Of a DNA stretch of 64,000 nucleotides, positions 3,978 to 34,852 are shown piece after piece; the stretch's first letter is position 1, and every line of letters begins with the position of its first letter. Position numbers and translations under genes: made by a program. Source of the DNA: Rhodobacter sp. NTK016B (lineage in GTDB: Bacteria; Pseudomonadota; Alphaproteobacteria; Rhodobacterales; Rhodobacteraceae); assembly GCF_017303295.1 (NCBI RefSeq), contig NZ_JAFKOK010000006.1, forward strand, positions 124,001 to 188,000, in the 5' to 3' direction. The notes below the pieces were generated by a model. It was not told where the DNA came from and ran no database searches. It was given only the letters and a program-made list of their open reading frames with translations.

Positions 3978-4139
3978 GCATAGCCCTCCACGATGCCCCC
4001 GGTTCGGGGTCTGCATCGGATCAATCACAAAGTCTTCGGAAAACACGGGGTCCCGGACGGGTCCGCTTTGGCGTTTCTCTAAGCGAATGGAGGAACCGAG
4101 TCAATTGCGTGACAGATCCATGCCAGGTCTGCGCAGCCC

Positions 4140-4484
4140 ACCCATCTTTCTTAAAGAATAAGAAAAGAGATCTAGGATAGATGATGATTATTGTCCTGGG
4201 GATAACATGAATTCCGATGCTGTCCCCATCTTTGTCCACAGGCCGCTTGTTCATGCGCGGTGGCAAACTTCCTATGCAGGTCTCTGACATCATTAACTGA
4301 ATCAAGTTCCAGCAAAGTTCATCCGATTGCTTGTCACCGATCTTTCACACCCTGTGCACCGGGGTTTTCCCGTGTGGAGAACTGGGCCCCGCGGCTTGAC
4401 TTTCTTGGGTGTAACCGGCGATCTCTCGCCAGCACCCCCTTTGGCCCCCAACTCACCCAGAGTTTTCGAGCGGACTTATCCACA
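4140..4484. other. Candidate chromosomal replication origin (oriC) between rho and maf
   Basis: The gap between divergent rho (start 3977) and maf (start 4484) is 506 bp with no supported gene. It contains an AT-rich stretch at about 4148-4210 that includes AGATCT, visibly poorer in GC than its surroundings. DnaA-box-like 9-mers are: minus-strand TTATCCCCA at 4197-4205, plus-strand TTGTCCACA at 4232-4240, minus-strand TTCTCCACA at 4373-4381 and a perfect TTATCCACA at 4476-4484. The first three have one mismatch each. The parS site 2.8 kb away and the flanking gene order support an origin. I did not find a clear CtrA TTAA-N7-TTAA site. Function is inferred; the region must also hold the rho and maf promoters. 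Confidence 0.65.
4476..4484 (+). promoter_or_regulatory. Perfect DnaA box overlapping the maf start codon
   Basis: TTATCCACA exactly matches the strong DnaA box consensus. Its last base is the A of the maf ATG, so bound DnaA would cover the maf translation start region in DNA and possibly affect maf transcription. Confidence 0.75.
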
Positions 4485-7173: not shown

Positions 7174-8338
7174 CGCGCTGGTCGTGGGCGCCGGTCCTGC
7201 CGGGCTCATGGCCGCCGACCGCCTGCTTGCCGCCGGGTATTCGGTGCTGCTGGCCGAGGCCAAACCCTCGCCCGCCCGCAAACTGCTGATGGCGGGGAAA
7301 TCCGGGCTGAACGTCACCAAGGACGAACCGTTCGACGCCTTTATTTCGAATTATTACGAAGCAAGGGAATGGCTGCGCCCAATGCTGACCGCCTTCGGCC
7401 CCGCCGAGGTGCAAGAGTGGATGCACGCGCAGGGACAGGCAGTCTTCACCGGCTCGTCCGGGCGGGTCTTTCCGCAGGCGATGAAGGCCTCGCCGCTGCT
7501 GCGTTACTGGCTGGCGGATCTGAGCGCGCGGGGTCTGGATCTGCGCCCGCGCTGGCGCTGGCAGGGCGACGGGCGGTTCGACACCCCCGAGGGGCCGGTG
7601 ACAGTGACGCCCAAGGCCAATGTGCTGGCGATGGGCGGCGCAAGCTGGGCGCGGTTGGGGTCCGATGGCGCCTGGGCCGATCTGCTGCGGCAAAAGGGCA
7701 TCGAGCCCGCGCCGTTCAGGCCGGCGAATATGGGGTTCCATATCGACTGGTCCGACCACATGGCGCGCCATTTCGGCCAGCCGCTCAAAGGGGTTGCGTT
7801 GATCGCGGGTCGTCAGAGCGTGCGGGCCGAAGCGGTGATCTCCCGGCGCGGCCTCGAAGGCGGCGGGATTTATGCGCTCAGCCGTACCCTGCGTGACGGC
7901 GCGCCGCTCTTCGTCGACCTGTTCCCGGATCTGAGCATCGATGCGCTGACCGACCGGATCGCCCGCCGTCCCAGCCGGGAATCCTCGGCCAACCGTCTGC
8001 GCAAGCTGGGGCTGATCGAGGGGCGTCTGGCCCTTGTGCAGGAATTCCTGCGGCCGCTGCCCGATGATCCCATGAAAGCGGCGCAGGCGCTCAAACGGTT
8101 GCGTATCCCGCTGACCGGACCGCGCCCGATGGACGAGGCGATCTCGACCGCTGGGGGTATCCGCCGCGCGGATCTGACCGAAGACCTGATGCTGCGCGCG
8201 CTGCCCGGCACCTTCGCTGCGGGTGAAATGCTGGATTGGGAGGCCCCGACCGGCGGCTACCTGCTGACCGCCTGTCTTGCGACGGGTCGCTGGGCGGGTG
8301 ATGGTGCCGCGCGGTTCATTGCGTCCCGGTCAGGATAA
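7163..8338 (+). CDS. NAD(P)/FAD-dependent oxidoreductase of the BaiN/YhiN (HI0933-like) family
   Basis: 391-residue predicted flavoprotein. The start at 7163, 11 bp inside dnaQ, gives [21 protein letters not shown], the Rossmann FAD-binding loop. MAGKSGLNVTK near residue 45 is the HI0933-family motif (usually GxGRCNxTN). VLAMGGASWARLGSDG lies mid-protein. The C-terminal FAD motif TFAAGEMLDWEAPTGGYLLT is characteristic. The physiological substrate of this subfamily is not established. It is the last gene of the maf-dnaQ operon; its 3' end overlaps the convergent phosphopantetheinyl transferase by 23 bp. Confidence 0.85.
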   Translation: MIPDALVVGAGPAGLMAADRLLAAGYSVLLAEAKPSPARKLLMAGKSGLNVTKDEPFDAFISNYYEAREWLRPMLTAFGPAEVQEWMHAQGQAVFTGSSGRVFPQAMKASPLLRYWLADLSARGLDLRPRWRWQGDGRFDTPEGPVTVTPKANVLAMGGASWARLGSDGAWADLLRQKGIEPAPFRPANMGFHIDWSDHMARHFGQPLKGVALIAGRQSVRAEAVISRRGLEGGGIYALSRTLRDGAPLFVDLFPDLSIDALTDRIARRPSRESSANRLRKLGLIEGRLALVQEFLRPLPDDPMKAAQALKRLRIPLTGPRPMDEAISTAGGIRRADLTEDLMLRALPGTFAAGEMLDWEAPTGGYLLTACLATGRWAGDGAARFIASRSG

Positions 8339-8939
8339 AGCCGCCGCCGATGGCAAAGCGCCCGTCGATGCCGTGACCGGCACGGAAAGGGCCGACATCG
8401 CGCTGGAATTCTGCGCGAAACGTATCGTCGCCCAAGGTAATCGCCAGCGTCTCGAACCCGAACAGCGCGCCGGTTTGCGGGTATTGCGCTTTGTAGACGG
8501 CCTCTTTCGCGCTGAAGATCAGCCGTGCCTGATGCGGGGTCAGGCCCCGCTCTTGCGGCAAAAGCACGGTGTCCCAGATTTCTTCGGGCAGCTCGGCATC
8601 CAGCTCCAGATCGAGGCCGATCAACCCCTCACCCACAGCCGCGACGGCCCAGCCCCCGGCATGCGAGATCGAGCCCGTGACACCGTCGGGCCAGACCGGG
8701 CTGCGGTCTATGGCCATCGGGATCGCGACATCGCGGCCGATCGCCTGCCGCGCCGCCTGTCGTCCGGCCGAGAATTCTGCACGACGCCGGTCGATGGCAC
8801 GCTCGACGGCGCGCTCTTCTTCGGGTTTTAGCGAAACATCACCGATGGGCACCACAGCCACCCGCATAGGTGCCGGGAAAACGCGCACCGCCAGCCCTTC
8901 GAGCTGGCGGCGCGTTGTTTCAAGGTCGATGGCGTTCAC
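8316..8939 (-). CDS. 4'-phosphopantetheinyl transferase (EntD/Sfp superfamily)
   Basis: 207-residue enzyme that transfers phosphopantetheine from CoA to carrier-protein serines. The superfamily motifs are in order: VTGSISHAGGWAVAAVG near residue 87, IGLDLE (Mg-binding Asp/Glu; GLDLE in place of the more common GIDIE) and FSAKEAVYKAQ near residue 143. It starts 7 bp after the NRPS gene, so it most likely activates the T and ACP domains encoded just upstream. The EntD-type N-terminal region (VVPIGDVSLKPEEERAV) argues for the secondary-metabolism class rather than AcpS. Confidence 0.93.
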   Translation of the reverse strand: MNAIDLETTRRQLEGLAVRVFPAPMRVAVVPIGDVSLKPEEERAVERAIDRRRAEFSAGRQAARQAIGRDVAIPMAIDRSPVWPDGVTGSISHAGGWAVAAVGEGLIGLDLELDAELPEEIWDTVLLPQERGLTPHQARLIFSAKEAVYKAQYPQTGALFGFETLAITLGDDTFRAEFQRDVGPFRAGHGIDGRFAIGGGFILTGTQ

Positions 8940-8946
8940 GCCGGGA

Positions 8947-11900
8947 TCATCCGAGCTTGCTCAGCCGCTCGGCCCGCATCGCGCGGCGGCGCGACATCGC
9001 GTCCATGCGTCCGCGTGCGGCCTCTTGCTCGACCTCCTTGGCGGGTTCGGGAGTTTGCGGCGCGGTGCTGCCCGCAGGCTTCAACTTGGCGTCGATATGC
9101 GCCGCCAGAGCCTGCAAAACCGGGAAGCGGAACACGTCGGTGATTGAAAGGCCCGGCAGCGCCAGCGCCTCGCGGATCTCACGATGCGCCTGCACGGCCA
9201 GCAGCGAATGCCCGCCAAGCTGGAAGAAGTTGTCGGCGGGCTTGATCTCGGCCACGCCCAGAACCTTCTGCCAGATCGCCGCGATGCGGGCCTGCGTATC
9301 GCCGCCATTCGCCGCCACAGGGGCCGCGATCACCGCCGCACGCACCACGCCCGGTGCGGGCAGCGCCTTGCGGTCGATCTTCTTGTTGGGCGTCAGCGGG
9401 AAGCTGTCTAGCCGCACGACAGCCGAGGGCACCATATGCGCGGGCAACACCCCCGCCAGCGCCGTTTTGAGCGCGCCGGTATCGGCATGGCCCAGCACAT
9501 AGGCCACCAGCCGCACGTCGCCCGGCTGATCCTCGCGCGCGATGACGACCGATTGCGTGACGCCGGGCAGCGCGTCGAGCTGCGTCTCGATCTCGCCCAG
9601 CTCGATCCGGTAGCCGCGGATCTTCACCTGATGGTCGGCGCGACCCAAGAAATCGACCGTCCCGTCCGCGCGCAGCCGCACCAGATCGCCGGTGCGATAG
9701 AGCCGCTCGCCGTCAATGGTGACGAACCGCTCGGCGGTCAGCTCAGGGCGCTGCCAATAGCCGCGCGTGACGCCTGCCCCGCCGATCCACAGCTCGCCTT
9801 CCTGCCCCACCGGGACCGGGCGTTGCTGGTCGTCCAGAACGTGCAGCGTCGTGTTGGCGATGGCCGAGCCGATGCCGACCACGCCCTCGCCGCCCTTCGA
9901 AAAGGCGGTGGTGGACCAGATCGTGGTTTCCGTGGGGCCGTACATGTTCTGCACCGGCGCGCCGGTGATCCCCGCCAGCTGCGACGCCAGAGCGCCCGGC
10001 AGCGCTTCGCCGCCGACCATCATGTGTTTGACCTGACCCAGCGCTGCGCGGGCCTCGTCATTGGTGACCAGCATCCGTGCCATCGAGGGCGTGCATTGCA
10101 GATGGGTGACCTTGTGGCGCTGGATCTGCGCGGCGAGCGAGAAGTCATTCGCGTCCAGCTCGGCCGGCGCGTTCGACCGGCGCAGCACCTCGGCCAGCGG
10201 ATAGAGCCCTTCGAGCACCTGCTGGGTGGGGATGCCGTAATCGATCAGGCAGCCGATCTCGGCCACGCCGATGGCTTTGAGTTGCTCGACGCGACGGATG
10301 CAATCGTCGACCGTGCCGAACAGACCGCTGTCTTCGAAATAGCGGTTGAAGGCATAATCGAGGATCCCGTCCACCTCGTCCTGGCTGAGCGTGGCAAGGT
10401 CGATCTCCATCGGGTTCGACGTGCCCTTGGGCTTCTTGAACGCGGGGAAGGCCCATGCGTATTGCTTCAGCAGCCCGGCAGCGGACAGAAGATAGCTCTT
10501 CATCGGGCCGCTGGCGGTTTCGCGCGCGATCTCGCGGGTGCGGGCGACATAGGTGTGCAGCATCATCGTGACGGTGTAATCGGCAGGATCGCGTCCCACC
10601 TCACGCAGGGCTTCGTGGTAGATCTTGATCTTCTCGGCCACCTCGTCGATCGACTGGCCCAGAAGGTGGGTCAGCACGTTCGCACCGATGCGCCCGGCTT
10701 CGCGCCACGTCTCGGGATTGCCCGCCGTGGTCAGCCAGATCGGCAATTCCTTGGACACCGGGCGCGGCAGCGACTGAACGATGCGTTCTTCGCCATTATG
10801 GTCAAACGCGACATCCTCGCCACGCCACAGCTTGCGCACCTTCTCGATCGTGTCGAACAAGGCGGCCTTGTTGTGGGGCACGCTGTTTTCCGGCCGCAGC
10901 ACGAAATCGACCGGGTGCCAGCCCGAGGCCATGCCAAGGCCCACGCGCCCGTTGGTCAGGTTGTCGATCACTGCCCATTCCTCGGCGATCCTGAGCGGAT
11001 GGTGCAGCGGCGCCACGCAAGAGCCCGAGCGCACGTCGATATTTTTGGTCACCGCCGCCACCGCCGCGCCGGTAACGGCGGGGTTCGGATAGGGGCCACC
11101 GAAGGCGTGGAAATGGCGTTCCGGCGTCCAGACGGCGCGGAAGCCGTGGGTATCGGCAAACTTCGCGCCTTCCAGCAGCAGCTCGTATTTTTTCGGCCCG
11201 GGGCCGTCATCGTTGCCCCAGTAGAACAGGCTGAAATCCATCTTCTTGTCGGAAATCGCCATCGACCCGCCAGAGACCATCATGCGGTCTTCGTCCGACG
11301 TCAGCACCAGCTTGAAGCCGCGCGCGAGCGTCCAGAAGAGCTCGAGCACCGAAATATCGAAGGACAGCGAGGTCACCGCGAGCCAAACCCCTGCCGGATC
11401 GTGCTGAATGCGCTGATCCATGCCGGCGAAGAAGTTGGCGACGTTGCGGTGTTCGACCATCACGCCCTTGGGCAGCCCGGTCGAGCCCGAGGTATAGATC
11501 AGATAGGCAAGGTTTTCGGGCGCGGCGCCGGTTTCGGGGTTTCCCTCGGGCGCCGAGGCGACGCGGGTATCGGTGTCCAGAACCAGCAGCTGCGCGGCGT
11601 GGTCCGGCAGACTGTCGATCAGGGCCGATTGCGTCACGATGACCGGCGCGCCGCTATCGGTGACGAAATGCTTCAGGCGGTCGGTGGGATAGGACGGATC
11701 CATCGGCACATAAGCGCCGCCTGCTTTCAGAATGCCCAGCGCGCCGATCAGCAGATCGGGCGAGCGGCGGGCGCACAGCGCGACGGGCGTGTCGGGTTTG
11801 ATGCCCATGTCTTGCAATACATGCGCGACCTTGTTGGCGCGCGCGTTGAGCTGGGCATAGGTCAGCGACCGGCCCTCGAAGACCAGCGCGGTCGCGTCGG

Positions 11901-13473
11901 GCGTGCGGGCAACCTGCGCTTCGAACAGGCGGCTGATCGGCTGGTTGTCGAAAGGCTCGGCGGTGTCGTTGAGCCGCGCAAGGATCGCCCGCTCGCGCGC
12001 GCTGAGGCGGTCGAGCTCGGCCAGCGGCGTGGCGATTTCGGCCTGCGCCAAATGCGCGATGCGGGCGGCGGCAAGATCCAGCGCCGCTTCGTCGGTCAGG
12101 GACAGATCGGCGCTCAGCGTCAGACCCGCAGGTCCCGATACGAGGCATAGCGCCACACCTTCGATGGGCGTACCGGTTTCCGACAGGCCCAGCGCGGGGG
12201 CGGAAAGCGGCATCAGCGCCGGGTCGCGGCCAATGAGGTCGCGCGCATAGGAGGGATGCGTTTCAGTGAAGGCTTTGGCGTCCGCAATCGCGGCTTCCAG
12301 CGCGCCGAGGCTGTCCCCCGTGACGTTCATCGGCACCCACGGGGCGATATACGCGGTGGCGGCGCGATGCGCATCGCCGGTCATCGGGCCGCGATAGGCC
12401 CAGCTGCCGGGGGTAAAGGACGACAGGATCGCCGCCGCACGGGGGGCGGTGACGTTGTCCAGCGCACGCTCGGCCCGGCCGGTGCCGCCGCTTCTGGTGG
12501 ACAGCTCGGACGGGGCAAAGGCGGCAAGCGCCTTGCGCCAGCGCGCTTCGCCGGGCGTGACGCGGGCCATGGCGTCGGTCAGCGCGTCGGACGGGGCAGG
12601 CAGCAGATCACCGGTCGCGGCGATGTCGCTTTCGGGCAGGCCGCCCAGACAGGTCAGGCCCGTCAGAATCACCGCGCCATCGGCGCAGGCAACGGTCAGC
12701 GCGTCGCCCGTGTCCAAGACGGTGCCCGGCACGCCCGAGCCGGGGACGATTTCCGCCCCGGTCACGGCGAAAACGCCCTTGGCTGTTTCGACCTTCGGCA
12801 GCGCCAGCGGGTTCCAGTAACCGCTATGATCGAGCGCGCGCACCAGACGGACGATCTCGGCCGCCGGGCGAGTGAAGTCGATCCGCGCGGCGCGGGCGGG
12901 GCGGTCGTCACGGCGATAGAGCGTGCGCTGGCTCAGGTCCTGCGCGGTGCCGGGCGCATCGCTTTCCAGCGCGGCGACCACGGCAGGGAAGCTTTCGATG
13001 GCCGCACCATAGCAGCGGGCATTGAGCGAAAAGGTGGTATCGTCGGGCTGAATGTCGAAGGCGGCCTGTTGCAGGATCCGACCTTCGTCGATCCCGCCCT
13101 CGATCCGGTGCCATGTCACGCCGTGGCGCGTCTCGCCGTTCAGCATCGCCCAGAGCGGCGCGTTCAGCCCGGCATAACGCGGCAGCGGGCCGTCATGAAA
13201 ATTGACCGCCCCTTTGGCGGCGCGGGCGATCAGCGCGTCGGGCAGAACGGACAGGTTGGCAATCGACAGCAGCCAGTCGAAATCTTCGGTGACACGGGTC
13301 TCAAGCCCCTTGCCCGGCTCAACCACTGGCAGGCCGGCGGTTTCGGCCCAGGCGATCACCTCGGCATTGCGGCTGGCGACGGTGACGATCCGGTGGCCCC
13401 GGCCAAGAAGGATCTTGGCGCATTCCACCAGCAGGGATTCATTCCCAACCAGGACACTCGAAAAAGACGTCAT
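8947..13473 (-). CDS. NRPS loading module: formyltransferase - degenerate C - A (with inserted luciferase-like monooxygenase) - T
   Basis: 1508 residues. About 1-290: formyltransferase with N91, H93 in NFHDGPLPRYAG and D129 in GGIDEG, as in methionyl-tRNA formyltransferase. About 330-500: resembles the C-terminal half of a condensation domain but has no HHxxxDG. About 510-1390: adenylation domain with LIYTSGSTGLPKG, FDISVLELFW, MYGPTETTIW, YRTGD and NKKIDRK. Between the FDISVLELFW and YGPTE motifs (about 745-1070) is a flavin luciferase-like monooxygenase of the MupA/Atu3671 type. T domain serine is S1423 in LGGHSLL, and a basic tail follows. The specificity residues I extract are D-I-L-Q-V-G-M-I-W-K, close to glycine codes. 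AGGAGAG precedes the ATG. The product would be a formylated, possibly hydroxylated aminoacyl-T starter. Confidence 0.9.
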   Translation of the reverse strand: MTSFSSVLVGNESLLVECAKILLGRGHRIVTVASRNAEVIAWAETAGLPVVEPGKGLETRVTEDFDWLLSIANLSVLPDALIARAAKGAVNFHDGPLPRYAGLNAPLWAMLNGETRHGVTWHRIEGGIDEGRILQQAAFDIQPDDTTFSLNARCYGAAIESFPAVVAALESDAPGTAQDLSQRTLYRRDDRPARAARIDFTRPAAEIVRLVRALDHSGYWNPLALPKVETAKGVFAVTGAEIVPGSGVPGTVLDTGDALTVACADGAVILTGLTCLGGLPESDIAATGDLLPAPSDALTDAMARVTPGEARWRKALAAFAPSELSTRSGGTGRAERALDNVTAPRAAAILSSFTPGSWAYRGPMTGDAHRAATAYIAPWVPMNVTGDSLGALEAAIADAKAFTETHPSYARDLIGRDPALMPLSAPALGLSETGTPIEGVALCLVSGPAGLTLSADLSLTDEAALDLAAARIAHLAQAEIATPLAELDRLSARERAILARLNDTAEPFDNQPISRLFEAQVARTPDATALVFEGRSLTYAQLNARANKVAHVLQDMGIKPDTPVALCARRSPDLLIGALGILKAGGAYVPMDPSYPTDRLKHFVTDSGAPVIVTQSALIDSLPDHAAQLLVLDTDTRVASAPEGNPETGAAPENLAYLIYTSGSTGLPKGVMVEHRNVANFFAGMDQRIQHDPAGVWLAVTSLSFDISVLELFWTLARGFKLVLTSDEDRMMVSGGSMAISDKKMDFSLFYWGNDDGPGPKKYELLLEGAKFADTHGFRAVWTPERHFHAFGGPYPNPAVTGAAVAAVTKNIDVRSGSCVAPLHHPLRIAEEWAVIDNLTNGRVGLGMASGWHPVDFVLRPENSVPHNKAALFDTIEKVRKLWRGEDVAFDHNGEERIVQSLPRPVSKELPIWLTTAGNPETWREAGRIGANVLTHLLGQSIDEVAEKIKIYHEALREVGRDPADYTVTMMLHTYVARTREIARETASGPMKSYLLSAAGLLKQYAWAFPAFKKPKGTSNPMEIDLATLSQDEVDGILDYAFNRYFEDSGLFGTVDDCIRRVEQLKAIGVAEIGCLIDYGIPTQQVLEGLYPLAEVLRRSNAPAELDANDFSLAAQIQRHKVTHLQCTPSMARMLVTNDEARAALGQVKHMMVGGEALPGALASQLAGITGAPVQNMYGPTETTIWSTTAFSKGGEGVVGIGSAIANTTLHVLDDQQRPVPVGQEGELWIGGAGVTRGYWQRPELTAERFVTIDGERLYRTGDLVRLRADGTVDFLGRADHQVKIRGYRIELGEIETQLDALPGVTQSVVIAREDQPGDVRLVAYVLGHADTGALKTALAGVLPAHMVPSAVVRLDSFPLTPNKKIDRKALPAPGVVRAAVIAAPVAANGGDTQARIAAIWQKVLGVAEIKPADNFFQLGGHSLLAVQAHREIREALALPGLSITDVFRFPVLQALAAHIDAKLKPAGSTAPQTPEPAKEVEQEAARGRMDAMSRRRAMRAERLSKLG

Positions 13474-13475
13474 TC

Positions 13476-14420
13476 TTAACTCTCCTGCGGTCGGCGCGTT
13501 CCCAGACTGTGTCGCAAGAGATCGCGGACAAAATGTGGCGGGGTGTGGGGTTGTTTGCGTTGCAGCAACACCCGCAGCCCGAACAGGCCCAGCCCGGCCA
13601 TATGCGCGGCGGTCGCGGTCAGCGTGTAGAGGCGACCGTGGTTCTTTTCAAAGTAATGCTGCCGCGACTGAAACCAATAATCCGGCACGCGGGACCATTG
13701 CTTCATCCCGGTGCTGACCGAGCCGATATGCACGACCCGGCTCTCAACCACATAGGCCGCGTTCCAGCCCGCGCGCCGCCCGCGCAGGAACAGATCAACC
13801 TCTTCGAAATACAGGAAAAACGTCTCGTCGAAGAGACCGATCTCATCCAGCATGTCCTGCCGCATCAGCACGCTGGCCCCGGCGACCCAGTCGACCTGCG
13901 TGGTCTGCGTGGGCAGCGGCGGGGCGACGATGGCGTGTTTGAGCAGCTTCGAAACCGGGCCGGTCTGCGCCGCGCCCTCGAACTCGCTGGCGATCGAGGG
14001 GAAGCGGAAGGCGGTGACATGCGGCACATCGTCATCCCCCCGGATCGCGCTGCCCGCAAAGCCGGTCTGCGGATGGGTGTCGAGGTAATCGAGCAGCACG
14101 CGGATCGCATCGGGTTCGGGGAAGGCGTCCGAATTCATGATGAAGACGTAATCGGGCCGCGTTCCGTCCGGCAGGCCCGCGCGGATGCCCACATTGTTCC
14201 CCGCCCCGAAGCCGCCATTGCGTTCAGACGCGATCACCCGCACGCGTGGCCAGCTTTCGGCACGGGCGCTCAGGGTTTCGAAACTGCCGTCCTGGCTGTC
14301 ATTGTCGACGATGGTGATCGCGCCCTCGATCCCTTCCATCGCGGTGATTGCGGCCTCGGTGGCGCGCGCTGTCATCTCGGCGGTGCGCCAGTTCAGGATC
14401 ACGCACAGAACGCGGCTCAT
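13476..14420 (-). CDS. Family 2 glycosyltransferase (rhamnosyltransferase-like, WbbL/COG1216 type)
   Basis: 314-residue GT-A glycosyltransferase. The N-terminus VILNWRTAEMTARA and ITIVDNDSQDGS are the nucleotide-sugar-binding region. ERNGGFGAGNNVGI near residue 85 and FIMNSDAFPEPDAI (DxD-like position) are typical of the rhamnosyltransferase class. YFEEVDLFLRGRRAGW near residue 210 is the conserved acidic ED motif. Its ATG overlaps the PKS stop (ATGA) and its stop lies 2 bp before the NRPS start, so it is embedded in the biosynthetic operon. It may glycosylate the PKS/NRPS product or a carrier; the sugar and acceptor are unknown. Confidence 0.88.
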   Translation of the reverse strand: MSRVLCVILNWRTAEMTARATEAAITAMEGIEGAITIVDNDSQDGSFETLSARAESWPRVRVIASERNGGFGAGNNVGIRAGLPDGTRPDYVFIMNSDAFPEPDAIRVLLDYLDTHPQTGFAGSAIRGDDDVPHVTAFRFPSIASEFEGAAQTGPVSKLLKHAIVAPPLPTQTTQVDWVAGASVLMRQDMLDEIGLFDETFFLYFEEVDLFLRGRRAGWNAAYVVESRVVHIGSVSTGMKQWSRVPDYWFQSRQHYFEKNHGRLYTLTATAAHMAGLGLFGLRVLLQRKQPHTPPHFVRDLLRHSLGTRRPQES

Positions 14421-17400
14421 GTCTCGACCTCGGCGATCAGGGTCTTCAGCTTGGAGGCCATGACGCGGACATTGGGTTCCAGCACCATGGAATCGTGATC
14501 GCCGGGAACCTCGTGCACGCTGAGCCGGGCCATGAAGCGCGACCAGTCGTTATCGTCATAGACGTATTCCTTCGCACTGCTGACCCAGCGCCCGCCCGAG
14601 ACCTTCCAATGCCGGTCCAGCGGCGGGCGGAACAGCGCGACCCGGCCGTCATAGGGGGCAAGGCCGACATGCGGCAGGGCATTGCGGAAAGCGGTTTCGA
14701 TAGCGCGGTTGTGGAAGCCGCTATCGGCTTCGGCCTGCGCCTCTTGCGCCATGCGTTCCAGCTCTTCCTTCCACAATTTGCGGTTGGCCATCCATTCGGC
14801 GAAATAGCCCGGACCCTTGCGCCGGAACTCGGTCGCCTTGATCAGCGCTTTGTCGGTGCGATTCAGCGCCGGGCGCTCGGGCAGAGGTGTGTCCAGCAGC
14901 GTCAGCAGCGCGACCTCTTCGCCCTCGGCGCGCAATTGCCGCGCCATTTCCAAAGCCGTCAACCCGCCGCCCGAGAAACCGCCGATCAGGTAGGGCCCGT
15001 GCGGTTGCACCTGCCGGACCTCGGTCAGGTAGTCGCGCGCGGCGTCATCCAGACGGCGATGCGGTTCGGCGCCACCCAGAAGGCCGCGCGCCTGCAGGCC
15101 ATAGAACGGCCGGTCGCGGCCCAGAAGCTGGGCGAGATTGCGCAGGTTCAGCACGTTGCCGAACATGCCCGCGCACAGGAAGAACGGCGTCTTCGCGCCC
15201 GGCTCGCCCTCGTGCATCGGCACGAGGAACTCGTAGCGTTTCTGCGGCACGGCCACGGCGGGGGCATCGCCCGTCTCGGTGATCCCGGCGCGTTCGGCGA
15301 CCATGGCGGCGACTTTTTCGACGGTCGGCGCTTCGAACAGGATCGAGATCGGGAAATCGACCGACCATGTTTTCTTCACGCGCGCGAACAGCCGGACGGC
15401 GATCAGCGAATGGCCGCCAAGATCGAAGAAGCTGTCCTGCACGCCGACGCCCTGCACGCCCAGCAATTCCTCGAACATCGCCACCAGCATCCGCTCGACA
15501 TCGTTGCGCGGCTCGACATAGGCGCTGTCGAGATTGGGGCGTTCGAATTTCTGCCCGTCGCCGGTTTCGATCTCGATAGGCTGCGCGGCCTCGGCGATCA
15601 GTTCGGGCAGCGTCAGCGACGAGATCACCACCTGCCGACGATCCGTAGCGATGGCGCGCAGGAAACCCTCGGCGCCCTCGGCTGCGGTCAGGCCCTGCGC
15701 AAGATTGCGCGCCAGCCGTTCTTCGCCGGGATTGAGCGCGCGGTCGTCGGTCCCGGCGTCGAACTCCACTTCCGAGGGCAGAAGCGGCGCGGGCGTCCCA
15801 AAGCCGCCGTCCAGCCGCTTGATTGTGAAGCGGGCGATCTCGGCGCAGACCTCGCCCTCGGGCGTGGCAAGGGTGATGTCGAAACTGGCCACGCCCTGTT
15901 CGGCGGGGGCGATACGGACATGGCTGACGATTTCGGCGGGCAGGGCGCGGAAGACCTTCACGCTGCCATAGCTGACCGGCACCCAGAGCGCGCGACCGCC
16001 GTAACCCGCGATCAGCTCCATCGCCCAGCCGGTGGCAAGGTCCGTCAGCGCGGGATGCAGCACAAAGCCCTGATCCAGATCGGCGCGGAACGCTTCGGGC
16101 AGGGACAGCCGGGCGATGCCTTCGCCGGTGCCATAGCCCTGCCGTTTCAGCACCCGCCAGCGCGGGCCGAAGTTCAGATGCGTCTCCTGCCCCGTGGCGA
16201 TGCCGCAGGGATCTTTCTTGATCCCGGTCTGGCAGCGCCCTTCGACCGCGGCGATGTCCAGCGGCGCGGGGCGGGCGATGTCGCGCATGTTGATCTGCGC
16301 GCTGGCATTCAGCACGAAGCCGTCCCGCCCGCGCAGGGTCACGCCCGAGCGCAGCGCGAAGTCATAGCCCGCATCGTTGCGCGTCAGCGTCACGCGGATC
16401 GCGCGGGGGTCGTCGACCTCGAGCGCGCGGAAGAAGGTCAGGTCGGCGATCTCGAAGGGTTCGACCTCGCCCTGTCCGTGCAGCGATTGCGCGGCGATTT
16501 CCAGCATCCCGGTGCCGGGCACCAGCGCGCGGTTGTCCTTGGTGCGGTGTTCGTCCAGCAGCCACATATCGGTGGTATAGGTCGCGCTGAAACGCCGGTT
16601 CATCCCCGCGTCAAAGCCCGCCGTTTCCAGCAAAGGCAGCGCGACGGGCGTTTCCGGCATCGCCGGGTCGTGGCCCAGGCGCGAGGCCATAGCGTCGGCG
16701 GCCATGCCGACCTCGGCCCAGATGCCCCAGTCGATGGCGGTGACGCGGGTCTTGCCCGAACGCGCCGTGGCCCAGGCGTTGAGATATTCGTTCGCGGCAA
16801 CGTAATCGACCTGACCGGCGGGCGCCGTCAGGGTCGAGGTGGACGAGAACACGACGATCCGTTCGACCGCGCCGTCGGGCAGCAGGCTGTCGAGCACGCG
16901 TGTGCCGTGGACCTTGGGGGCAAAGACGTTTTCCACGCTGCCGACCGATTTCGCGGCCATCGGCGCGTCGTCAATCGTGCCCGCCGCGTGGATCACGCCG
17001 TGAATCTTGCCGAACCGCGTGCGGGCGGCGTCGAGGGCTGCGCGCATCTCGTCGATATTGCAGACATCGGCAGCGGTGATCATCACCTCGCCGCCCATGG
17101 CTTCCAGCCGCTCGACCTGCAGGATGCGGCGGGTCGCGGCGTCGCCGCGCGCCTTCGCGGCCTCCCATTCTTCGCGCGGCGGCAGGGCGGTGCGAGCGAT
17201 CAGCACGATCTTCGCGCCTGAGCGTTGGATCAGAGCCTCGGCCACGGATTGCCCGATGCCGCCGAAACCGCCGGTGATGACCCAGGCCGCGCCCTGCGGC
17301 AAGTCGGGGGTGTCGGTCAGCGGCTGCGCGCGCAGTTTCTGCACGAAGCGCTTGGTTCCGCGCAGGGCGGCGACATGGTTGCCGGGCTGGGCGAGCAGCT

Positions 17401-20400
17401 CTTCAAGGATCGGCAGGGTTTGATCCGGCGCCGATCCGCGCTTGCGGGTGCGGGGGTCGATATCCAGCGTGCCGATGGTGATCCCGGTGACCTCATGCGG
17501 CATCACGCGGGCGGGCCCGGCGATCAGCGCCTTTTCCGGCCAGCGCAGCGCTTCGTCCCGGACGCGCTGGGCGCCGGCGGTGATGACGCTCATGTGGATC
17601 GGCCCGGCGAGGCCTTCATCCGCAATGGCCTGACCGAGGAACAGCAGCGAATAAAAGCCCTGTTCCACATGCGCCTGAAACGCGTTCGAGCCGGGGCGGA
17701 ACCGCTCTTCGCCCGAGGCGAGCCAGAAATGCGCGATGCGGGTGGGCACGGTGCCGCGATGGACAAGGTCCTGAACAAGCAGATCATACCCCTCGCGCCC
17801 GCGCTCGGGCGGCAGGGTATAGGCATTCTCGCCCCGGCGGCAGAACGTGTCGCCGGTCTGCACCTCGATCACCTTTTGTCCGGCGTCGCGCAGGCGGGCG
17901 ATGACGGGGGCGGCGATGCCGTCCTGATCGGCGAAGATCAGCCAGCTTTCCGCCGGGGCCTGATCCAGCTCGGTCTCGACATCGAGATCCACCTCGGCCG
18001 AGCGCGCGACCCAGGCCAGCCGCGTGCCCATGTCCGCGACATCCTCGATCCGCGCGGGAAGGGCGGTTTCTACCGCCGTGGCGGGTTTGGCGGGGGCGAT
18101 GAAATATTCGCGCCGGTCAAAGGCATAGCCCGGCAGCGGCAGTTTCACCCGCCGCGCCTCGCCCCAGATCTGCGCCCAATCGAACGCGCCGCCCAGTGCC
18201 CAGATCCGGCCCAGAAGGCCCATGTGGTACATATCGTCGGCGATGTCTTCGTCGGGATGGCGCAGCGCGGCCAGAACCTGTTGCGGCGGCACCGCGCCAT
18301 GCATCCGGGTGAGCGAGGACAGCGCCTTGCCCGGCCCGACCTCGATCCAGATGCGGTTGGGGGTCTCGGCCAGATGGGCCACGCAATCGGCGAACATCAC
18401 CGTGCTGCGCAGGTGCTGGGTCCAGTAATCGGGGCTGGTGGCCTGCTCGGGCGTCAGGGGCTGGCCGGTGCGGTTGGAGATGATCGGCAGTTGCGGCGGA
18501 CTAAGCCGGATCGACGCCAGATAAGCACGGAACTGACCGAGGATCGGTTCGAGCATCTTGGAATGCGCGGCGATGTCGATGGCGATGCGCTGGGTATCGA
18601 TGCCATCCGCTTCAAGCCGTTTGGCCAGATCCTCAAGCCCCGCATCGGGGCCGCTGACCACTGTCAGCTCCGGCGCGTTGACCGAGGCGATATCCAGATC
18701 GCCCAGATAGGGCGTCAGCGCGTCCAGACCCAGCGGCACCGACAGCATCCCGCCCGCAGGCACGGTGTCGAACAGCGAGCCGCGCAGATGCACCAGACCG
18801 ATGCAATCTTCGAAGCTGAGGACGCCGGCAAGGCAGGCGGCAGTGTTCTCGCCCATCGAATGCCCGACCAGGGCCGAGGGCTGCACGCCCCACGCCATCA
18901 GCATCTGCGCCAGAGCGTATTCGGTGATCATGATCAGCGGCAGCTGGACCGAGGGTTTTTTCAGCGTCTCGTTCGCCGCGTCCTCGGCCCCCGGTTCGGG
19001 CAACCAGAGCGCGCGCAGATCGTAGGACAGGCGCGGCTGCAGGATCTCAAGCCCGCGATCCATCCATTCGGCGAAGACCGGCTCGGTTTCATAGAGATCG
19101 CGCGCCATGCCCGCATATTGGGCACCGCCGCCGGGGAACAGGAAAACCACGTCGGGATTGTCCAGCGCGGTATGGCTGAAGACCCGGCGCGGGTTGTCGG
19201 TTTCCAAAAGCGAGGCGGCTTCTTCGGCTGTTTCGGCCACCACCACGCGGCGCTTGTCAAAGGCGCGGCGGCCCTGCTTCAGCGTCCAGGCGATATCGGC
19301 AAGGTTCTGATCGGGGTTCGCGCGCAGATGAGCGGCCAGATTGGCCGCCTGCCCGTCCAGCGTGGTTTTCGAGCGCGCCGAGAGGGTGAACAGCTGAAAC
19401 GGCCAGTCGCTTTCCTCGGACGGGGCGCGTTCGGGCGCTTCTTGAAGGATCGCATGGGCATTGGTGCCGCCCACGCCCAGTGAGTTGACGCCCGCGCGGC
19501 GCGGATGGCCGCGGTTCTCCCACGGCGTCAGCGCGGCGTTGACGGCGAAGGGCGAGGTTTCGAAATCGATCGTCGGGTTCGGCGCCTCGAAGCCCAGCGA
19601 GGGGGGCATTTCCTTGTGATGCAGCGACAGCGCCACCTTGATGAGCGAGGCCACGCCCGCCGCCGTGTCCAGATGGCCGATATTGGTCTTGACCGAGCCG
19701 ATCTTGCAGAATTGCGTCTTGTCGGTGGTCTGCTGAAAGGCCTGCGTCATCGCGGCGACCTCGATCGGGTCGCCCAGATAGGTGCCGGTGCCGTGGCATT
19801 CGATGTAATCGACCGTCTCGGCGGGAACGTCGGACAATGCCTGCGCCTCGGCCACGCAGCGCGCCTGACCCTCGACCGAGGGCGCCAGATAGCCCGCCTT
19901 CTGCGCGCCGTCATTGTTGATCGCCGATCCCTTGACCACGGCCCAGATATGGTCGCCGTCGCGGATCGCATCGTCCAGCCGTTTCAGCGCCACGCAGCCC
20001 GCGCCCGAGCCGAACACCGTGCCCTGCGCGCGATGGTCGAAGGCATGGCATTCGCCATCGGGGCTCAGGATCTCGTTTTCCTTGTAGAAATAGCCGCGCA
20101 TCTGCGGCAGCTCGATAGTCACGCCGCCCGCCAGCGCCATGTCGCATTCGCCGTTCAACAGCGCCTGCGAGGCATAGTGCAGCGCCACCAGAGAGGTCGA
20201 ACACGCGGTCTGGATGTTGATCGACGGGCCGCGCAGGTCGAAGATATGGCTGACGCGGGTGGACAGGAAATCCTTGTCGTTGCCGGTATGGCGCAGCAGG
20301 AACATGCCGACATCGCGCACGATGTCGCGGTTCGAGCAGATGTTGAAATAGAAATAGCTGCCCATGCCGCAGCCCGCATAGACGCCGATCGTGCCGTCGA

Positions 20401-20743
20401 AGCCGTCGGGCGTGGTGCCCGCGTTCTCCATCGCTTCCCACGCCACTTCCAGGAACTGGCGGTGCTGCGGGTCGAGGATCGCGGCCTCCTTGGGCGAGAA
20501 GCCGAAGAACTCGGCGTCGAAATCGGCGAATTTGTCGAGCGGCGCGGCGAAGGGGACGTAGTTGGGCTGACGGATATTGGCCGGGTCTTCGCCCGCAGCC
20601 AGAAGCTCATCCTCGGTCAGTTGACGGATGGCACGGGTGCCCGAACGCAGCATCTCCCAATAGGCATCGACCGACGGCGCACCCGGCAGATGGGCGGCCA
20701 TGCCCACGATGGCGATGTCGGTGTCGGAGATATCGGCGGACAT
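14417..20743 (-). CDS. Type I polyketide synthase, single module KS-AT-KR-DH-ACP-TE
   Basis: 2108 residues from the ATG at 20743, with AAAGG 7 bases upstream. KS (about 8-435): Cys181 in TACSTS, His in CHGTGT, His in NIGH. AT (about 530-820): FPGGGAQY and Ser629 in GHSMGE; the selectivity motif reads AAHS, neither the malonyl nor the methylmalonyl consensus. KR (about 1150-1345): VITGGFGGIGQS, with Tyr1314 and Asn1318 in DYVAANEY and an IDD motif at 1257-1259, resembling B-type LDD. DH (about 1385-1650): His1399 and Asp1568 in HPALTD; the glycine of HxxxGxxxxP is not present. ACP serine is S1779 in DLGGHSL. TE: Ser1924 in GFSGGG, Asp1951, His in GDHDSM. The KR-before-DH order is uncommon. The missing loading domain and the N-terminal KS suggest it accepts the NRPS starter. 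Confidence 0.92.
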   Translation of the reverse strand: MSADISDTDIAIVGMAAHLPGAPSVDAYWEMLRSGTRAIRQLTEDELLAAGEDPANIRQPNYVPFAAPLDKFADFDAEFFGFSPKEAAILDPQHRQFLEVAWEAMENAGTTPDGFDGTIGVYAGCGMGSYFYFNICSNRDIVRDVGMFLLRHTGNDKDFLSTRVSHIFDLRGPSINIQTACSTSLVALHYASQALLNGECDMALAGGVTIELPQMRGYFYKENEILSPDGECHAFDHRAQGTVFGSGAGCVALKRLDDAIRDGDHIWAVVKGSAINNDGAQKAGYLAPSVEGQARCVAEAQALSDVPAETVDYIECHGTGTYLGDPIEVAAMTQAFQQTTDKTQFCKIGSVKTNIGHLDTAAGVASLIKVALSLHHKEMPPSLGFEAPNPTIDFETSPFAVNAALTPWENRGHPRRAGVNSLGVGGTNAHAILQEAPERAPSEESDWPFQLFTLSARSKTTLDGQAANLAAHLRANPDQNLADIAWTLKQGRRAFDKRRVVVAETAEEAASLLETDNPRRVFSHTALDNPDVVFLFPGGGAQYAGMARDLYETEPVFAEWMDRGLEILQPRLSYDLRALWLPEPGAEDAANETLKKPSVQLPLIMITEYALAQMLMAWGVQPSALVGHSMGENTAACLAGVLSFEDCIGLVHLRGSLFDTVPAGGMLSVPLGLDALTPYLGDLDIASVNAPELTVVSGPDAGLEDLAKRLEADGIDTQRIAIDIAAHSKMLEPILGQFRAYLASIRLSPPQLPIISNRTGQPLTPEQATSPDYWTQHLRSTVMFADCVAHLAETPNRIWIEVGPGKALSSLTRMHGAVPPQQVLAALRHPDEDIADDMYHMGLLGRIWALGGAFDWAQIWGEARRVKLPLPGYAFDRREYFIAPAKPATAVETALPARIEDVADMGTRLAWVARSAEVDLDVETELDQAPAESWLIFADQDGIAAPVIARLRDAGQKVIEVQTGDTFCRRGENAYTLPPERGREGYDLLVQDLVHRGTVPTRIAHFWLASGEERFRPGSNAFQAHVEQGFYSLLFLGQAIADEGLAGPIHMSVITAGAQRVRDEALRWPEKALIAGPARVMPHEVTGITIGTLDIDPRTRKRGSAPDQTLPILEELLAQPGNHVAALRGTKRFVQKLRAQPLTDTPDLPQGAAWVITGGFGGIGQSVAEALIQRSGAKIVLIARTALPPREEWEAAKARGDAATRRILQVERLEAMGGEVMITAADVCNIDEMRAALDAARTRFGKIHGVIHAAGTIDDAPMAAKSVGSVENVFAPKVHGTRVLDSLLPDGAVERIVVFSSTSTLTAPAGQVDYVAANEYLNAWATARSGKTRVTAIDWGIWAEVGMAADAMASRLGHDPAMPETPVALPLLETAGFDAGMNRRFSATYTTDMWLLDEHRTKDNRALVPGTGMLEIAAQSLHGQGEVEPFEIADLTFFRALEVDDPRAIRVTLTRNDAGYDFALRSGVTLRGRDGFVLNASAQINMRDIARPAPLDIAAVEGRCQTGIKKDPCGIATGQETHLNFGPRWRVLKRQGYGTGEGIARLSLPEAFRADLDQGFVLHPALTDLATGWAMELIAGYGGRALWVPVSYGSVKVFRALPAEIVSHVRIAPAEQGVASFDITLATPEGEVCAEIARFTIKRLDGGFGTPAPLLPSEVEFDAGTDDRALNPGEERLARNLAQGLTAAEGAEGFLRAIATDRRQVVISSLTLPELIAEAAQPIEIETGDGQKFERPNLDSAYVEPRNDVERMLVAMFEELLGVQGVGVQDSFFDLGGHSLIAVRLFARVKKTWSVDFPISILFEAPTVEKVAAMVAERAGITETGDAPAVAVPQKRYEFLVPMHEGEPGAKTPFFLCAGMFGNVLNLRNLAQLLGRDRPFYGLQARGLLGGAEPHRRLDDAARDYLTEVRQVQPHGPYLIGGFSGGGLTALEMARQLRAEGEEVALLTLLDTPLPERPALNRTDKALIKATEFRRKGPGYFAEWMANRKLWKEELERMAQEAQAEADSGFHNRAIETAFRNALPHVGLAPYDGRVALFRPPLDRHWKVSGGRWVSSAKEYVYDDNDWSRFMARLSVHEVPGDHDSMVLEPNVRVMASKLKTLIAEVET

Positions 20744-20830
20744 GGCGTACCTTTGATGCAACGGAATTCGAACGGAAACTGGCTGATCTTTGGGGCGAGA
20801 GTGGCGCCCCAATCGGGCTGAAATCGGGCG

Positions 20831-22357
20831 TCAAATCAAGGTTCTGGGCCCGCTCGCCGCCGGGTCTTGTGCCGGGCCACTGCTTTGCTCGCCGCGATTG
20901 AGGCCCAACATGACGCCGCGATGAGCGCGCCGCAACCGCTCGTCGCGGGTGGCGTTGGTGGCGTGTTTCATATCCTCGGCATAGCCCAGAAGCGCGCCCG
21001 CCATCAGCCATGTGAAGGGAATGAGCGTGGCATTGGGCAACAGGTCGAACATGTTCACGGCAAGGATCAGCGCAATCGTACTGACCTCGACCGGGACGGG
21101 GGCGGCCCCCCGGCGACCCGCCTGAAAGGCCAGTGAATAAAGCGGCAGCGCCAGCATCCCGAAAGCGGCGATATAGCCCAGCCAGCCGTAATGCCCGATG
21201 GTGATGATCCATTGGCCGTCGACGATGGTCTCGGTCTCGCCGGTGGCGGCGTCGTAGACCATGAACCGGCCCCAGCCACCCCAGCCGAAAAGCGGCCGTT
21301 CCTCGACATGATCGAGGATGCGCTGTTCGTTGTTGAACCGGTATTCCAGCGATTGCTCGCGCTCTTCGCTGATCTCGGACACCTGATCTAGGATCGCCTG
21401 CGTCGGCACCAGTTCCAGCCCGCGCAGCATTGGATAGGCGATGACCAGCGTGACCAGCATCGTCGCGATGGCCAGATGGATTCGCGGTTTCATCAGCAGG
21501 ATGACCGGCACGAAGGCCAGCGTGTAAAGCAGCGGCCCCATCGATTTGGTCAGCACAACAAGGAACAGCCCGAAGCCCACCATGAGCAACCGCTTGCCCG
21601 CCAGATCCTTGGGGGCGATGCGGAACCGTCCGGCGGCGGCCATGGTGACCATGAAGACGAAGAAGGCGACCCAAAGCCCGTGCGGCATGAAAACGAAGGG
21701 CCGGAACCCGCCCTGCCGCATCGCCTGCGCGAAATCATGCTGGAAAAAGCCGTAGATGCGGGTGTGCAGCTGCGGCGACATCCGCACCTCGTAGAGCATC
21801 GGCAGGGCATAGAGCATCCCGCCGATGACCAGTGCCAGAAGGATCTCGCGCATGCCTTCGGGTCCGCGCAACGCCTCGCGGGCAAGGAAGAAGGGCAGCA
21901 TGAAGAAGATCTGCTGCACCAGCGCCGAGCCGGAATCATAGAATCTGAGCCCCGGAAGTCCCCACAATTCCAGCGCATTGGGATCGACCAGCCGCATCGA
22001 GCCGAACCGGTCCACGCCGAACTGGATCGCATCCATGTTGTTGAAAACGGTGATCGCCGGGCTGATGAGGAACATCACCACCAGAAGCCGCCCGACCCAG
22101 GCCTGCGGCACAAGGTTGGGCATCCGGCCCCAATACGACATGCAGATGGCAAAGGCCGTGAGGTTGGGAATGCTTTCCTTGTTCAACGGCGGGATCAGCG
22201 GGAAGTTGATTGCGCTGATCTGCGGCAGAAACATATAGGCGCCAAGGATCGACCAGATCAGCGCCCGCTGCTGCGACATGGTGCGGAACATGACGATCAC
22301 GACGACCGGATAGCCGACAAGCGCGAGCAGCGCGAAGATATTGCCGATCTGGATCAT
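20831..22357 (-). CDS. Polytopic membrane protein resembling O-antigen polymerase/ligase
   Basis: 508 residues from the ATG at 22357 (MIQIGNIFALLALVGYPVVV), giving roughly ten to twelve hydrophobic segments. An in-frame extension upstream is arginine-rich and not hydrophobic, so I reject it. A large periplasmic-type loop near residues 330-385 carries RFNNEQRILDHVEERPLFGWGGWGR, which matches the pattern of Wzy/WaaL-type proteins around the catalytic loop (xxPxxGWG). The short cytoplasmic C-terminus is hydrophilic. It ends 87 bp before the PKS, same strand, so it may be the first gene of the PKS/NRPS operon. Function is inferred from topology and the loop motif only. Confidence 0.65.
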   Translation of the reverse strand: MIQIGNIFALLALVGYPVVVIVMFRTMSQQRALIWSILGAYMFLPQISAINFPLIPPLNKESIPNLTAFAICMSYWGRMPNLVPQAWVGRLLVVMFLISPAITVFNNMDAIQFGVDRFGSMRLVDPNALELWGLPGLRFYDSGSALVQQIFFMLPFFLAREALRGPEGMREILLALVIGGMLYALPMLYEVRMSPQLHTRIYGFFQHDFAQAMRQGGFRPFVFMPHGLWVAFFVFMVTMAAAGRFRIAPKDLAGKRLLMVGFGLFLVVLTKSMGPLLYTLAFVPVILLMKPRIHLAIATMLVTLVIAYPMLRGLELVPTQAILDQVSEISEEREQSLEYRFNNEQRILDHVEERPLFGWGGWGRFMVYDAATGETETIVDGQWIITIGHYGWLGYIAAFGMLALPLYSLAFQAGRRGAAPVPVEVSTIALILAVNMFDLLPNATLIPFTWLMAGALLGYAEDMKHATNATRDERLRRAHRGVMLGLNRGEQSSGPAQDPAASGPRTLI

Positions 22358-22567: not shown

Positions 22568-23314
22568 GTGGAGTTTTCATTCCCGCCGCATCGGATCGAG
22601 GTCAACATGGCCGATTCCGCTGCGCTGCTGGCCGAGGTGCGGCGCCGGTTTCGCGCCGATGAAGGCTTCGCGCTGGCGACGATCAATCTCGATCACCTTG
22701 TGAAGCTGGCGCGCGATCCGGCCTTCCGCGAGGTCTATGCCGCGCAGGATCTGGTCTGTGCCGATGGCAATCCGATCGTCTGGCTGTCGAAGCTGGCGGG
22801 AAAGCCCGTCTCTCTGGTGCCCGGTTCGGACATGGTGGTGCCGCTGGCCAGCCTTGCCGCGCGCGAAGAGGTTCCCGTGGCGCTGATGGGCTCGACGGAC
22901 GAGGCGCTGTCGGATGCAGGCGCTGCACTGTCCGAACGCGTCCCGGGCCTGCGGATCGTCTCGCGCATCGCGCCGCCAATGGGGTTCGATCCCACCGGCC
23001 CCGACGCCCGGCGCATTCTGCAGGAGATCGCCGCATCGGGCGCAAGGCTGTGCTTCGTCGCACTGGGGGCGCCCAAGCAGGAACAATTCGCCGCTTTCGG
23101 ACGCCAGATCGCGCCGCAGGTGGGCTTTGCTTCGATCGGGGCGGGGCTGGATTTTCTGGCCGGACGACAGCAGCGGGCGCCGGAATGGGTGCGCGCGATT
23201 GCCATGGAATGGGTCTGGCGGATGATGTCGAACCCGCGGCGGCTGGCGAAGCGGTATTTCGACTGTATCGTGATCCTGCCGGGGCAGGCGCTGCGCGCGT
23301 GGCGCCAGCGCTAA
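22568..23314 (+). CDS. WecG/TagA/CpsF family glycosyltransferase
   Basis: 248-residue enzyme of the GT26 fold, which in characterised members transfers N-acetylmannosamine or a related sugar to a lipid-linked acceptor during surface polysaccharide or teichoic acid synthesis. GTG at 22568 was chosen: GGGGGA lies 4-9 bases before it and [16 protein letters not shown] matches the family start. [46 protein letters not shown] and the GAGLDFLAG motif are all present in order. The C-terminal [15 protein letters not shown] is the membrane-association helix of the family. It is divergent from the O-antigen polymerase-like gene. Confidence 0.92.
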
Positions 23315-31624: not shown

Positions 31625-31723
31625 GCGTCACCCACTGCCCAAGCCTGTTTCGGCTCGTTTTTCTTGGCGCGACTTTAACCCGATCCGGATCACCGGCAAA
31701 CCCCTAACTGCCGCAAGGGTTGA

Positions 31724-32749: not shown

Positions 32750-32776
32750 GGGACTCCTTCGCGTGCTTCACTTTGC

Positions 32777-32840
32777 CCTAAATACTCTCGGGGGTGAATT
32801 CGCGAAAGCGAAGAGGGGGCGGAAAGCCCCCTCTCTTTGT
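32777..32840 (-). repeat. Intergenic hairpin repeat, copy 3 (inverted)
   Basis: AAATACTCTCGGGGGTGAATTCGCG, a spacer and the hairpin AGAGGGGGC/GCCCCCTCT match the reverse complement of the element at 25391-25480. It lies between galU and the glycosyltransferase run and probably terminates galU. Confidence 0.75.
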
Positions 32841-32859
32841 CTTTGCCGATGCGGGCGGC

Positions 32860-33756: not shown

Positions 33757-33935
33757 CGGGACGCTCCACCTTGCTACACACATCGTGGGTCTCACTGCCC
33801 ACCGACAAGATGGTTAATCGCGGCCAATCGGGGCGCGATTGTGTCCGGAAACCGGGATTTTGTTGATGAATCAAGAAAAGCGGGGCCGGCGCGCGCCGCA
33901 ATGCCGCGAGGCGCGCGCCAGATGGGCGGGTGTGC

Positions 33936-34733: not shown

Positions 34734-34852
34734 CAATAATATCCTTGGGTGGACGCGTCAGAGCGCGAGTTGATCGAATTCGGCTTTGGACTTATCCTTT
34801 GCTGCTCCCGGAATGCAAGGTTCGGGGTTTCTTACCGGCGGAAAGAACACCG

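Follow-up and report, generated by a model that had tools for sequence, protein, structure and literature searches.

The 64,000-bp stretch of Rhodobacter sp. NTK016B DNA analysed here (assembly GCF_017303295.1, contig NZ_JAFKOK010000006.1, positions 124,001 to 188,000; hereafter the window, numbered from its first letter) carries at 8316-22357 five tightly packed genes, all of them on the minus (-) strand. In the 5′ to 3′ direction these genes encode a membrane protein of the Wzy_C (O-antigen ligase/polymerase) family (20831..22357; PF04932, 36.8 bits, cut-off 31.7), a type I polyketide synthase (PKS; 14417..20743), a family 2 glycosyltransferase (GT2; 13476..14420; PF00535 and PF13641), a non-ribosomal peptide synthetase (NRPS; 8947..13473) and a 4′-phosphopantetheinyl transferase (PPTase; 8316..8939; Pfam 4PPT_N (PF17837), 67.8 bits, and ACPS (PF01648), 39.3 bits), which presumably activates both carrier domains. 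The PF04932 family includes ligases besides Wzy-type polymerases. The start of the PKS gene was set at the ATG at 20743, and an alternative upstream TTG at 20812 is also open. A preliminary description of this DNA had placed the five genes here on one strand, and the Pfam and NCBIfam scores, together with the gene order kept among relatives, bear this out. The NRPS scored 464 bits against TIGR04020 (cut-off 244) and 315 bits against AMP-binding, and the PKS-GT2-NRPS order was kept in 20/20 fetched relatives (NRPS identity 52-95%), with a PPTase match adjacent in 18/20, so that a chance assembly of open reading frames is not a sensible explanation. From high to low coordinate the junctions are an 87-bp gap, a 4-bp overlap, a 2-bp gap and a 7-bp gap; the earlier range of 4-87 bp overlaps or gaps hence covers every junction except the 2-bp gap. 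A scan for promoters and terminators was uninformative (2 promoter-like sites versus 1.9 in shuffled sequences, and 13 terminator-like sites versus 9.6, standard deviation 3.2).

The NRPS reads as a formyltransferase (F) domain, a weak condensation (C)-like stretch, an adenylation (A) domain interrupted by a luciferase-like monooxygenase, and a peptidyl carrier (T) domain (all domain coordinates below refer to the minus strand). The F domain (residues 1 to ~310; 12544..13473) matches Formyl_trans_N and _C of Pfam, and its N91, H93 and D129, which we take to be the Asn-His-Asp catalytic triad of formyltransferases, are invariant in 14/14 NRPS homologues. A structure model of residues 1-520 (predicted local distance difference test, pLDDT, 91.5) gave the methionyl-tRNA formyltransferase 5uai as the top fold match (E=4.9e-23), and it matched methionyl-tRNA and ArnA formyltransferases across ~310 residues. 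The poorly conserved stretch that follows (residues ~311-490; 12004..12543) might be a condensation-domain remnant, judged by eye only; it had no Pfam match, and a condensation domain was absent from the 50 fold matches listed. The two parts of the A domain were located with Pfam at 11269..11925 (up to motif A4) and 9361..10152, and between them lies an FMN (flavin mononucleotide)-dependent luciferase-like monooxygenase of the MupA/Atu3671 family (10186..11235), to which the TIGR04020 match corresponds. The insertion is placed between FDISVLEL (invariant in 14/14) and NMYGPTETTIW, presumably motifs A4 and A5, and the monooxygenase assignment is supported by PuwE (PDB 6ket), which scored 425 bits against the NRPS profile. 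The code D-I-L-Q-M-G-M-I-W-K, which we take to be glycine-like when read at the Stachelhaus positions, has 9/10 positions invariant across the 14 homologues. The T domain (9094..9288; PF00550, 46 bits) is followed by a short basic C-terminal tail (~KR-R-x-x-MRAxR), seen by eye in 20/21 homologues, which is a candidate docking element towards the ketosynthase. A formylating, glycine-like starter module with possible oxidation, as proposed earlier, is therefore consistent with the domains present.

The PKS has, by Pfam, the order ketosynthase (KS; 19271..20722), acyltransferase (AT; 18332..19147), ketoreductase (KR; 16712..17287), dehydratase (DH, placed after the KR; 15809..16636; PF21089 and PF14765), acyl carrier (ACP; 15299..15487) and thioesterase (TE; 14486..15181; PF00975), and no enoylreductase (ER) domain was found in it. 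The residues expected of active domains are conserved in 21/21 homologues, namely a Cys and two His in the KS, Tyr and Asn in the KR, His and Asp in the DH, LGGHSL in the ACP, and Ser, Asp and His in the TE. In the AT, GHSMGE was observed in 20 homologues and GHSVGE in 1. The diagnostic AT extender motifs are HAFH and YASH; here the motif is IAAH in 21/21, which is neither of the two, so that a malonyl extender is not assured. Of the single reduced and dehydrated C2 unit predicted before, the reductive module with its TE stands, and the C2 nature of the unit does not follow from the AT. The NRPS-to-PKS direction that had been predicted is supported by a distant genome, G430, in which the PKS follows the NRPS colinearly.

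The operon had been regarded as self-contained, and this view could not be maintained, because it co-occurs with a Wzx/Wzy-type polysaccharide locus. Divergent from it lies a gene for a WecG/TagA/CpsF glycosyltransferase (~22607..23314, + strand, start codon uncertain; PF03808, 160 bits on 22598-23311), which was missed earlier, as was the distal part of the locus, which falls outside the window. In the own genome the operon and the WecG-type gene are at C65:132-147 kb, and the genes for GT2b, Wzz, a kinase, Wzx, a family 4 glycosyltransferase (GT4), GT2c and the secreted protein c6 are at C65:70.9-84.4 kb, ~48 kb away. The Wzx protein (C65:78860-80203) is 54% identical to a Polysacc_synt_3 protein; the Wzz-like chain-length protein (L159:12474-13787) matched PF02706 at 28.6 bits (cut-off 25.5); and the adjacent candidate co-polymerase kinase (L159:13794-14744) matched P-loop and tyrosine-kinase models, all below cut-off. 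The features of a Wzx/Wzy locus that are present are a Wzy-type polymerase (PF04932), a Wzx flippase and a Wzz-like protein. An acyl-CoA synthetase (L159:9138-10760) was considered as activator of an acyl group and dropped, since it is a PRK07470 equivalog (878.8 bits, cut-off 774); it was not noticed as a recurring neighbour, though no systematic test of that was made.

The same company was found around the operon of other genomes. In 20 genomes the recurring families were Wzx, Wzz-like, kinase, WecG-type glycosyltransferase, GT4, two GT2 proteins, a MocA-epimerase fusion, a sugar transferase (c17) and c6. A scan of named genomes gave at least 347 NRPS relatives, the best 80 of which were kept as named loci; these are mostly from Rhodobacteraceae (Leisingera sp. 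JC1, L089, and Phaeobacter sp., L110, among them), with 10 from Rhizobiales (including Devosia, Aureimonas, Rhizobium, Agrobacterium, Bosea, Hyphomicrobium and Xanthobacter) and one from a Myxococcales metagenome-assembled genome. On the contig of the latter (L126) the NRPS is 54% identical and the PKS lies on the opposite strand, a case of transfer or misbinning. With hidden Markov models (HMMs) at E <= 1e-5, the operon genes were matched in 76 (PKS), 68 (PPTase), 68 (GT2) and 39 (Wzy) of the 80 named loci, and the neighbours in 49 (Wzz), 47 (c6), 46 (GT4), 45 (GT2c), 42 (Wzx), 40 (GT2b), 40 (kinase), 39 (WecG), 20 (MocA-epimerase) and 20 (c17); a PF02397 (initiating phosphoglycosyltransferase) protein is present in L053. 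When 11 polysaccharide families (Wzy, Wzx, Wzz, kinase, WecG, c17, GT4, two GT2, MocA-epimerase and c6) were counted at >=100 bits, all 63 named loci of at least 20 kb held at least one of them and 61/63 at least two, whereas none of 20 control regions (20 kb each, placed arbitrarily within 17 of the genomes studied) held any. Among plasmids, 28 records of PLSDB matched the NRPS, and the surroundings were examined in 6. The Ruegeria conchae record has rfbD, rfbA and a sugar transferase followed by PKS-GT2-NRPS-PPTase; polysaccharide genes also surround the operon in those of Ruegeria sp. SCSIO 43209, Aminobacter sp. MSH1 and Paracoccus marcusii; and in the unannotated Rhizobium grahamii record Wzx (262 bits) and WecG (101 bits) were matched. 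In P. marcusii, an extra adenylation-domain protein adjoins the WecB/TagA/CpsF gene of the locus (L188:1-3634). Near a 46% identical homologue in another family (G371) the polysaccharide genes are Wzz, UDP-glucose dehydrogenase, DegT and Wzy_C, not those of the locus.

We then asked how the parts are distributed over whole genomes. NRPS relatives were present in 41/147 related genomes (28/130 genera), and in 7/385 genomes drawn across the class, own genome included, 2 of them outside the family (E <= 1e-250). In the 147 relatives the locus-type PKS was counted in 42 genomes, the NRPS in 41, and Wzx and c6 in 40 each (thresholds 1e-250 for PKS, 1e-60 for Wzx and 1e-20 for c6); the PKS-positive genome that lacks the NRPS, G012, is 70% complete. 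Wzx and c6 were each found in 40/42 PKS-positive and in 0/105 PKS-negative genomes. With one genome per genus (72 other genera), each was found in 25/27 PKS-positive versus 0/45 negative genomes (Fisher 2.3e-17), whereas a control glycosyltransferase gene of another locus (window 28920-30695) gave 25/27 versus 33/45 (p 0.065); these p-values are guides only, because the statistics ignore the kinship of the genomes. The distance between the two parts of the locus is ~48 kb in G000 and 80 kb in G008. G051 and G072 have their Wzx gene >1 Mb away from the PKS; in G004 the two genes are on different contigs, as are c6 and the PKS in G054 and G043. Since the parts co-occur although unlinked in several genomes, joint function rather than mere linkage is indicated. 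The c6 protein (L047:5452-8195) is secreted-looking, has 575-1054 aa, and comes with a second part, SGNH-like by eye, that is either fused to it or placed after it. No Pfam or NCBIfam match was found for the G010 copy, and a c6 model (pLDDT 83.7) gave in Foldseek weak glycosidase-barrel matches only (best E 3.0e-5, template-modelling scores 0.31 and 0.36), so that a glycosidase-like nature is a lead.

The operon is co-inherited with a cell-surface polysaccharide pathway, and it therefore probably makes a building block or a decoration of the polymer. The reading that we favour, at a probability of about 0.62, is that the operon supplies the acyl component of an exopolysaccharide (or capsule) pathway of the Wzx/Wzy-dependent type, and that a short acyl group started with N-formylglycine is built into or onto the polymer. 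The genomes compared support the link with the polysaccharide locus well; the structure of the acyl group and its place on the polymer are deduced, as follows. The A domain would load glycine onto the carrier, and the F domain would use formyl-tetrahydrofolate to formylate the amino nitrogen. The residue on the carrier may then be oxidised by the inserted monooxygenase. The KS would then take the chain and add one extender unit (malonyl or another), which the KR and DH would reduce and dehydrate to a group resembling 4-formamido-3-hydroxybutanoyl or 4-formamidobutenoyl, and the TE would release this group or pass it to a sugar acceptor. The in-operon GT2, the WecG-type enzyme and the distal GT4 and GT2 proteins would build a lipid-linked repeat unit bearing the acyl group, to be flipped by Wzx and polymerised by Wzy, with the Wzz-like protein and the kinase setting the chain length. 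The in-operon GT2, present in 20/20 relatives, was found in only 1/10 Rhizobiales loci, so that it seems not to be needed for the core chemistry. In a wider and more tentative form, many Rhodobacteraceae and some Rhizobiales may bear a polysaccharide whose repeat unit has an N-formyl-aminoacyl group made by the NRPS and PKS, and no free product may be known because the product is a polymer decoration; we consider this possible, at somewhat less than even odds.

Several observations weigh against an acyl-making role in polysaccharide synthesis. At the thresholds used, G039 (85% complete) lacks Wzx and c6, G079 lacks Wzx and G040 lacks c6; 7/80 named loci, all on contigs of <=13.1 kb, are without any of the 11 families; a scan of 164 kb of the own contig gave no c17-type sugar transferase; and nine of the ten Rhizobiales loci are without the in-operon GT2 family. 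The neighbourhood count is also not wholly independent, since the training set of the neighbour HMMs (20 genomes and the window) overlaps with the named loci in at least two genomes (HLUCCA12 and Seohaeicola DP4N-5), and Wzy is itself an operon gene. In G430, which has the most distant NRPS with surroundings fetched from genomes (44% identity), the NRPS and then the PKS lie among unrelated genes: no polysaccharide gene was seen in 16 kb upstream and 12 kb downstream, there was no locus-HMM match, and Pfam assigned the 12 flanking proteins examined to housekeeping, transport (zinc ATP-binding cassette (ABC) uptake, major facilitator superfamily (MFS)) and similar functions. A plasmid of Aliiroseovarius sp. 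M344 (L189:13435-27174) carries a related A-monooxygenase-T protein and then a large NRPS/PKS, with the exosortase XrtD a few kb away and no exopolysaccharide locus, and the PKS of Aminobacter has a TolC gene next to it, as might be expected if a small molecule were exported. The isolated G430 pair and the Aminobacter TolC, together with the assembly-line architecture ending in a TE and the treatment of a cluster of this kind as secondary metabolism in the excerpt of PMC4337385, would fit a free, secreted, possibly glycosylated small molecule (a signal or an antibiotic) that travels with polysaccharide genes in one lifestyle island. We regard such a product as unlikely, because Wzx and c6 follow the PKS so strictly even when unlinked, a glycosyltransferase lies inside the operon, and none of the annotated genes that flank the operon in the window codes for export, resistance or regulation. 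The surroundings of G430 bear on a metallophore-type system as well, in which the luciferase-like monooxygenase would N-hydroxylate formylglycine: the pair is a few kb downstream of the zinc ABC uptake genes (L197:10789-13933, L198:1064-7267), which raised this explanation slightly, and the monooxygenase family takes its name from Atu3671, which belongs to a siderophore cluster of Agrobacterium. The annotated genes that flank the operon in the window and in four annotated plasmid records (the PLSDB gene tables being incomplete) include neither a TonB receptor nor an iron transporter, and we consider a metallophore highly improbable.

The remaining features of the window concern its context. 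The gene order MnmE, Rho, a 437-bp gap, Maf, AroE, CoaE, DnaQ places a candidate oriC in the rho-maf gap (~4047..4483). Four DnaA-box-like sites lie in this gap, one of them exact and overlapping the first base of maf, and the entire window has 9 such sites versus 3.8 expected. From the gene context the gap is likely to be oriC, and the origin-proximal placement of the operon proposed earlier is plausible. The gene-dosage advantage derived from it was dropped as an explanation: CoaE and DnaQ are beside the operon only in the 6 same-genus genomes among the 20 relatives, and the 14 relatives of other genera carry the operon elsewhere, so that dosage gives no general rationale. Beyond the WecG-type gene, a zinc alcohol dehydrogenase and an esterase are adjacent at 23433-25375 and resemble a formaldehyde-detoxification pair, presumably of the FrmA/FrmB kind; the pair adjoins WecG in G008 and G009 too, and not in the other 4 same-genus regions. 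At 28920-35674 there is a separate, second sugar-polymer-type gene group, with a Branch/DUF5927 glycosyltransferase, two Glyco_tranf_2_4 proteins, a nucleotidyltransferase, an inositol monophosphatase-like protein and a weak ABC2 membrane match.

Several known systems resemble parts of the operon. The F-A-T initiation module of linear gramicidin synthetase, LgrA, in which a formyltransferase is fused to A-T, scored highest of the PDB entries against the NRPS profile (1063 bits); compared with LgrA, the NRPS of the window has a glycine-like code, a monooxygenase inserted in the A domain, an extra F-A stretch and a PKS partner. MtaG likewise has a monooxygenase placed between motifs A4 and A5 of a glycine-specific A domain. 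A lipid-like anchor or primer is the presumed product of RkpA and WcbR, the type I PKSs encoded in capsule clusters, and the same could be imagined for the product of the present PKS and NRPS. The wcbR/rkpA genes, which lie among capsule polysaccharide genes of Rhizobiales and Burkholderia, follow the same genomic logic (PMC3908369, in excerpt). A glycine-like formylating starter and a single KR-DH module without ER, if that module is used once, are unlike a lipid maker, so that we find an anchor improbable; the excerpt describing RkpA/WcbR mentions no NRPS partner or formylating starter, and the PKS of the window ends in KR-DH-ACP-TE. Monooxygenase domains in assembly lines are also found in PuwE, whose solved domain is the one matched above (PMC4219810, in excerpt), and in SolF (PMC9765074, in excerpt); different from PuwE, MtaG and SolF, the monooxygenase of the window sits in a formylating starter module. 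The product had been called unrecognised, and in the sense of an undescribed gene set this does not hold: Collins and Nyholm 2015 (PMC4337385), citing Martens et al., describe, in the excerpt available, a conserved Roseobacter cluster of NRPS, PKS, glycosyltransferase and PPTase genes in 28/57 genomes, with an uncharacterised product, and these four gene kinds match the core of the present operon. Phaeobacter inhibens T5 has a PKS, Inhi_1972, and an NRPS, Inhi_1974 (PMC4062626, in excerpt), and the spacing of these two genes is compatible with the cluster. In a literature search of open-licence papers, no link between roseobacter or alphaproteobacterial NRPS-PKS systems and polysaccharide loci was found reported. 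What is new, and well supported by the genomes compared, is the functional assignment of the known four-gene cluster to a Wzx/Wzy polysaccharide pathway. This placement says where the product should be looked for, i.e., in the polymer, and which mutants should be compared, and it brings assembly-line chemistry and the cell surface together in a group of bacteria that is abundant in the sea. The Roseobacter cluster, in the excerpt of PMC4337385 a matter of secondary metabolism, is here tied to a Wzx/Wzy locus and followed into Rhizobiales.

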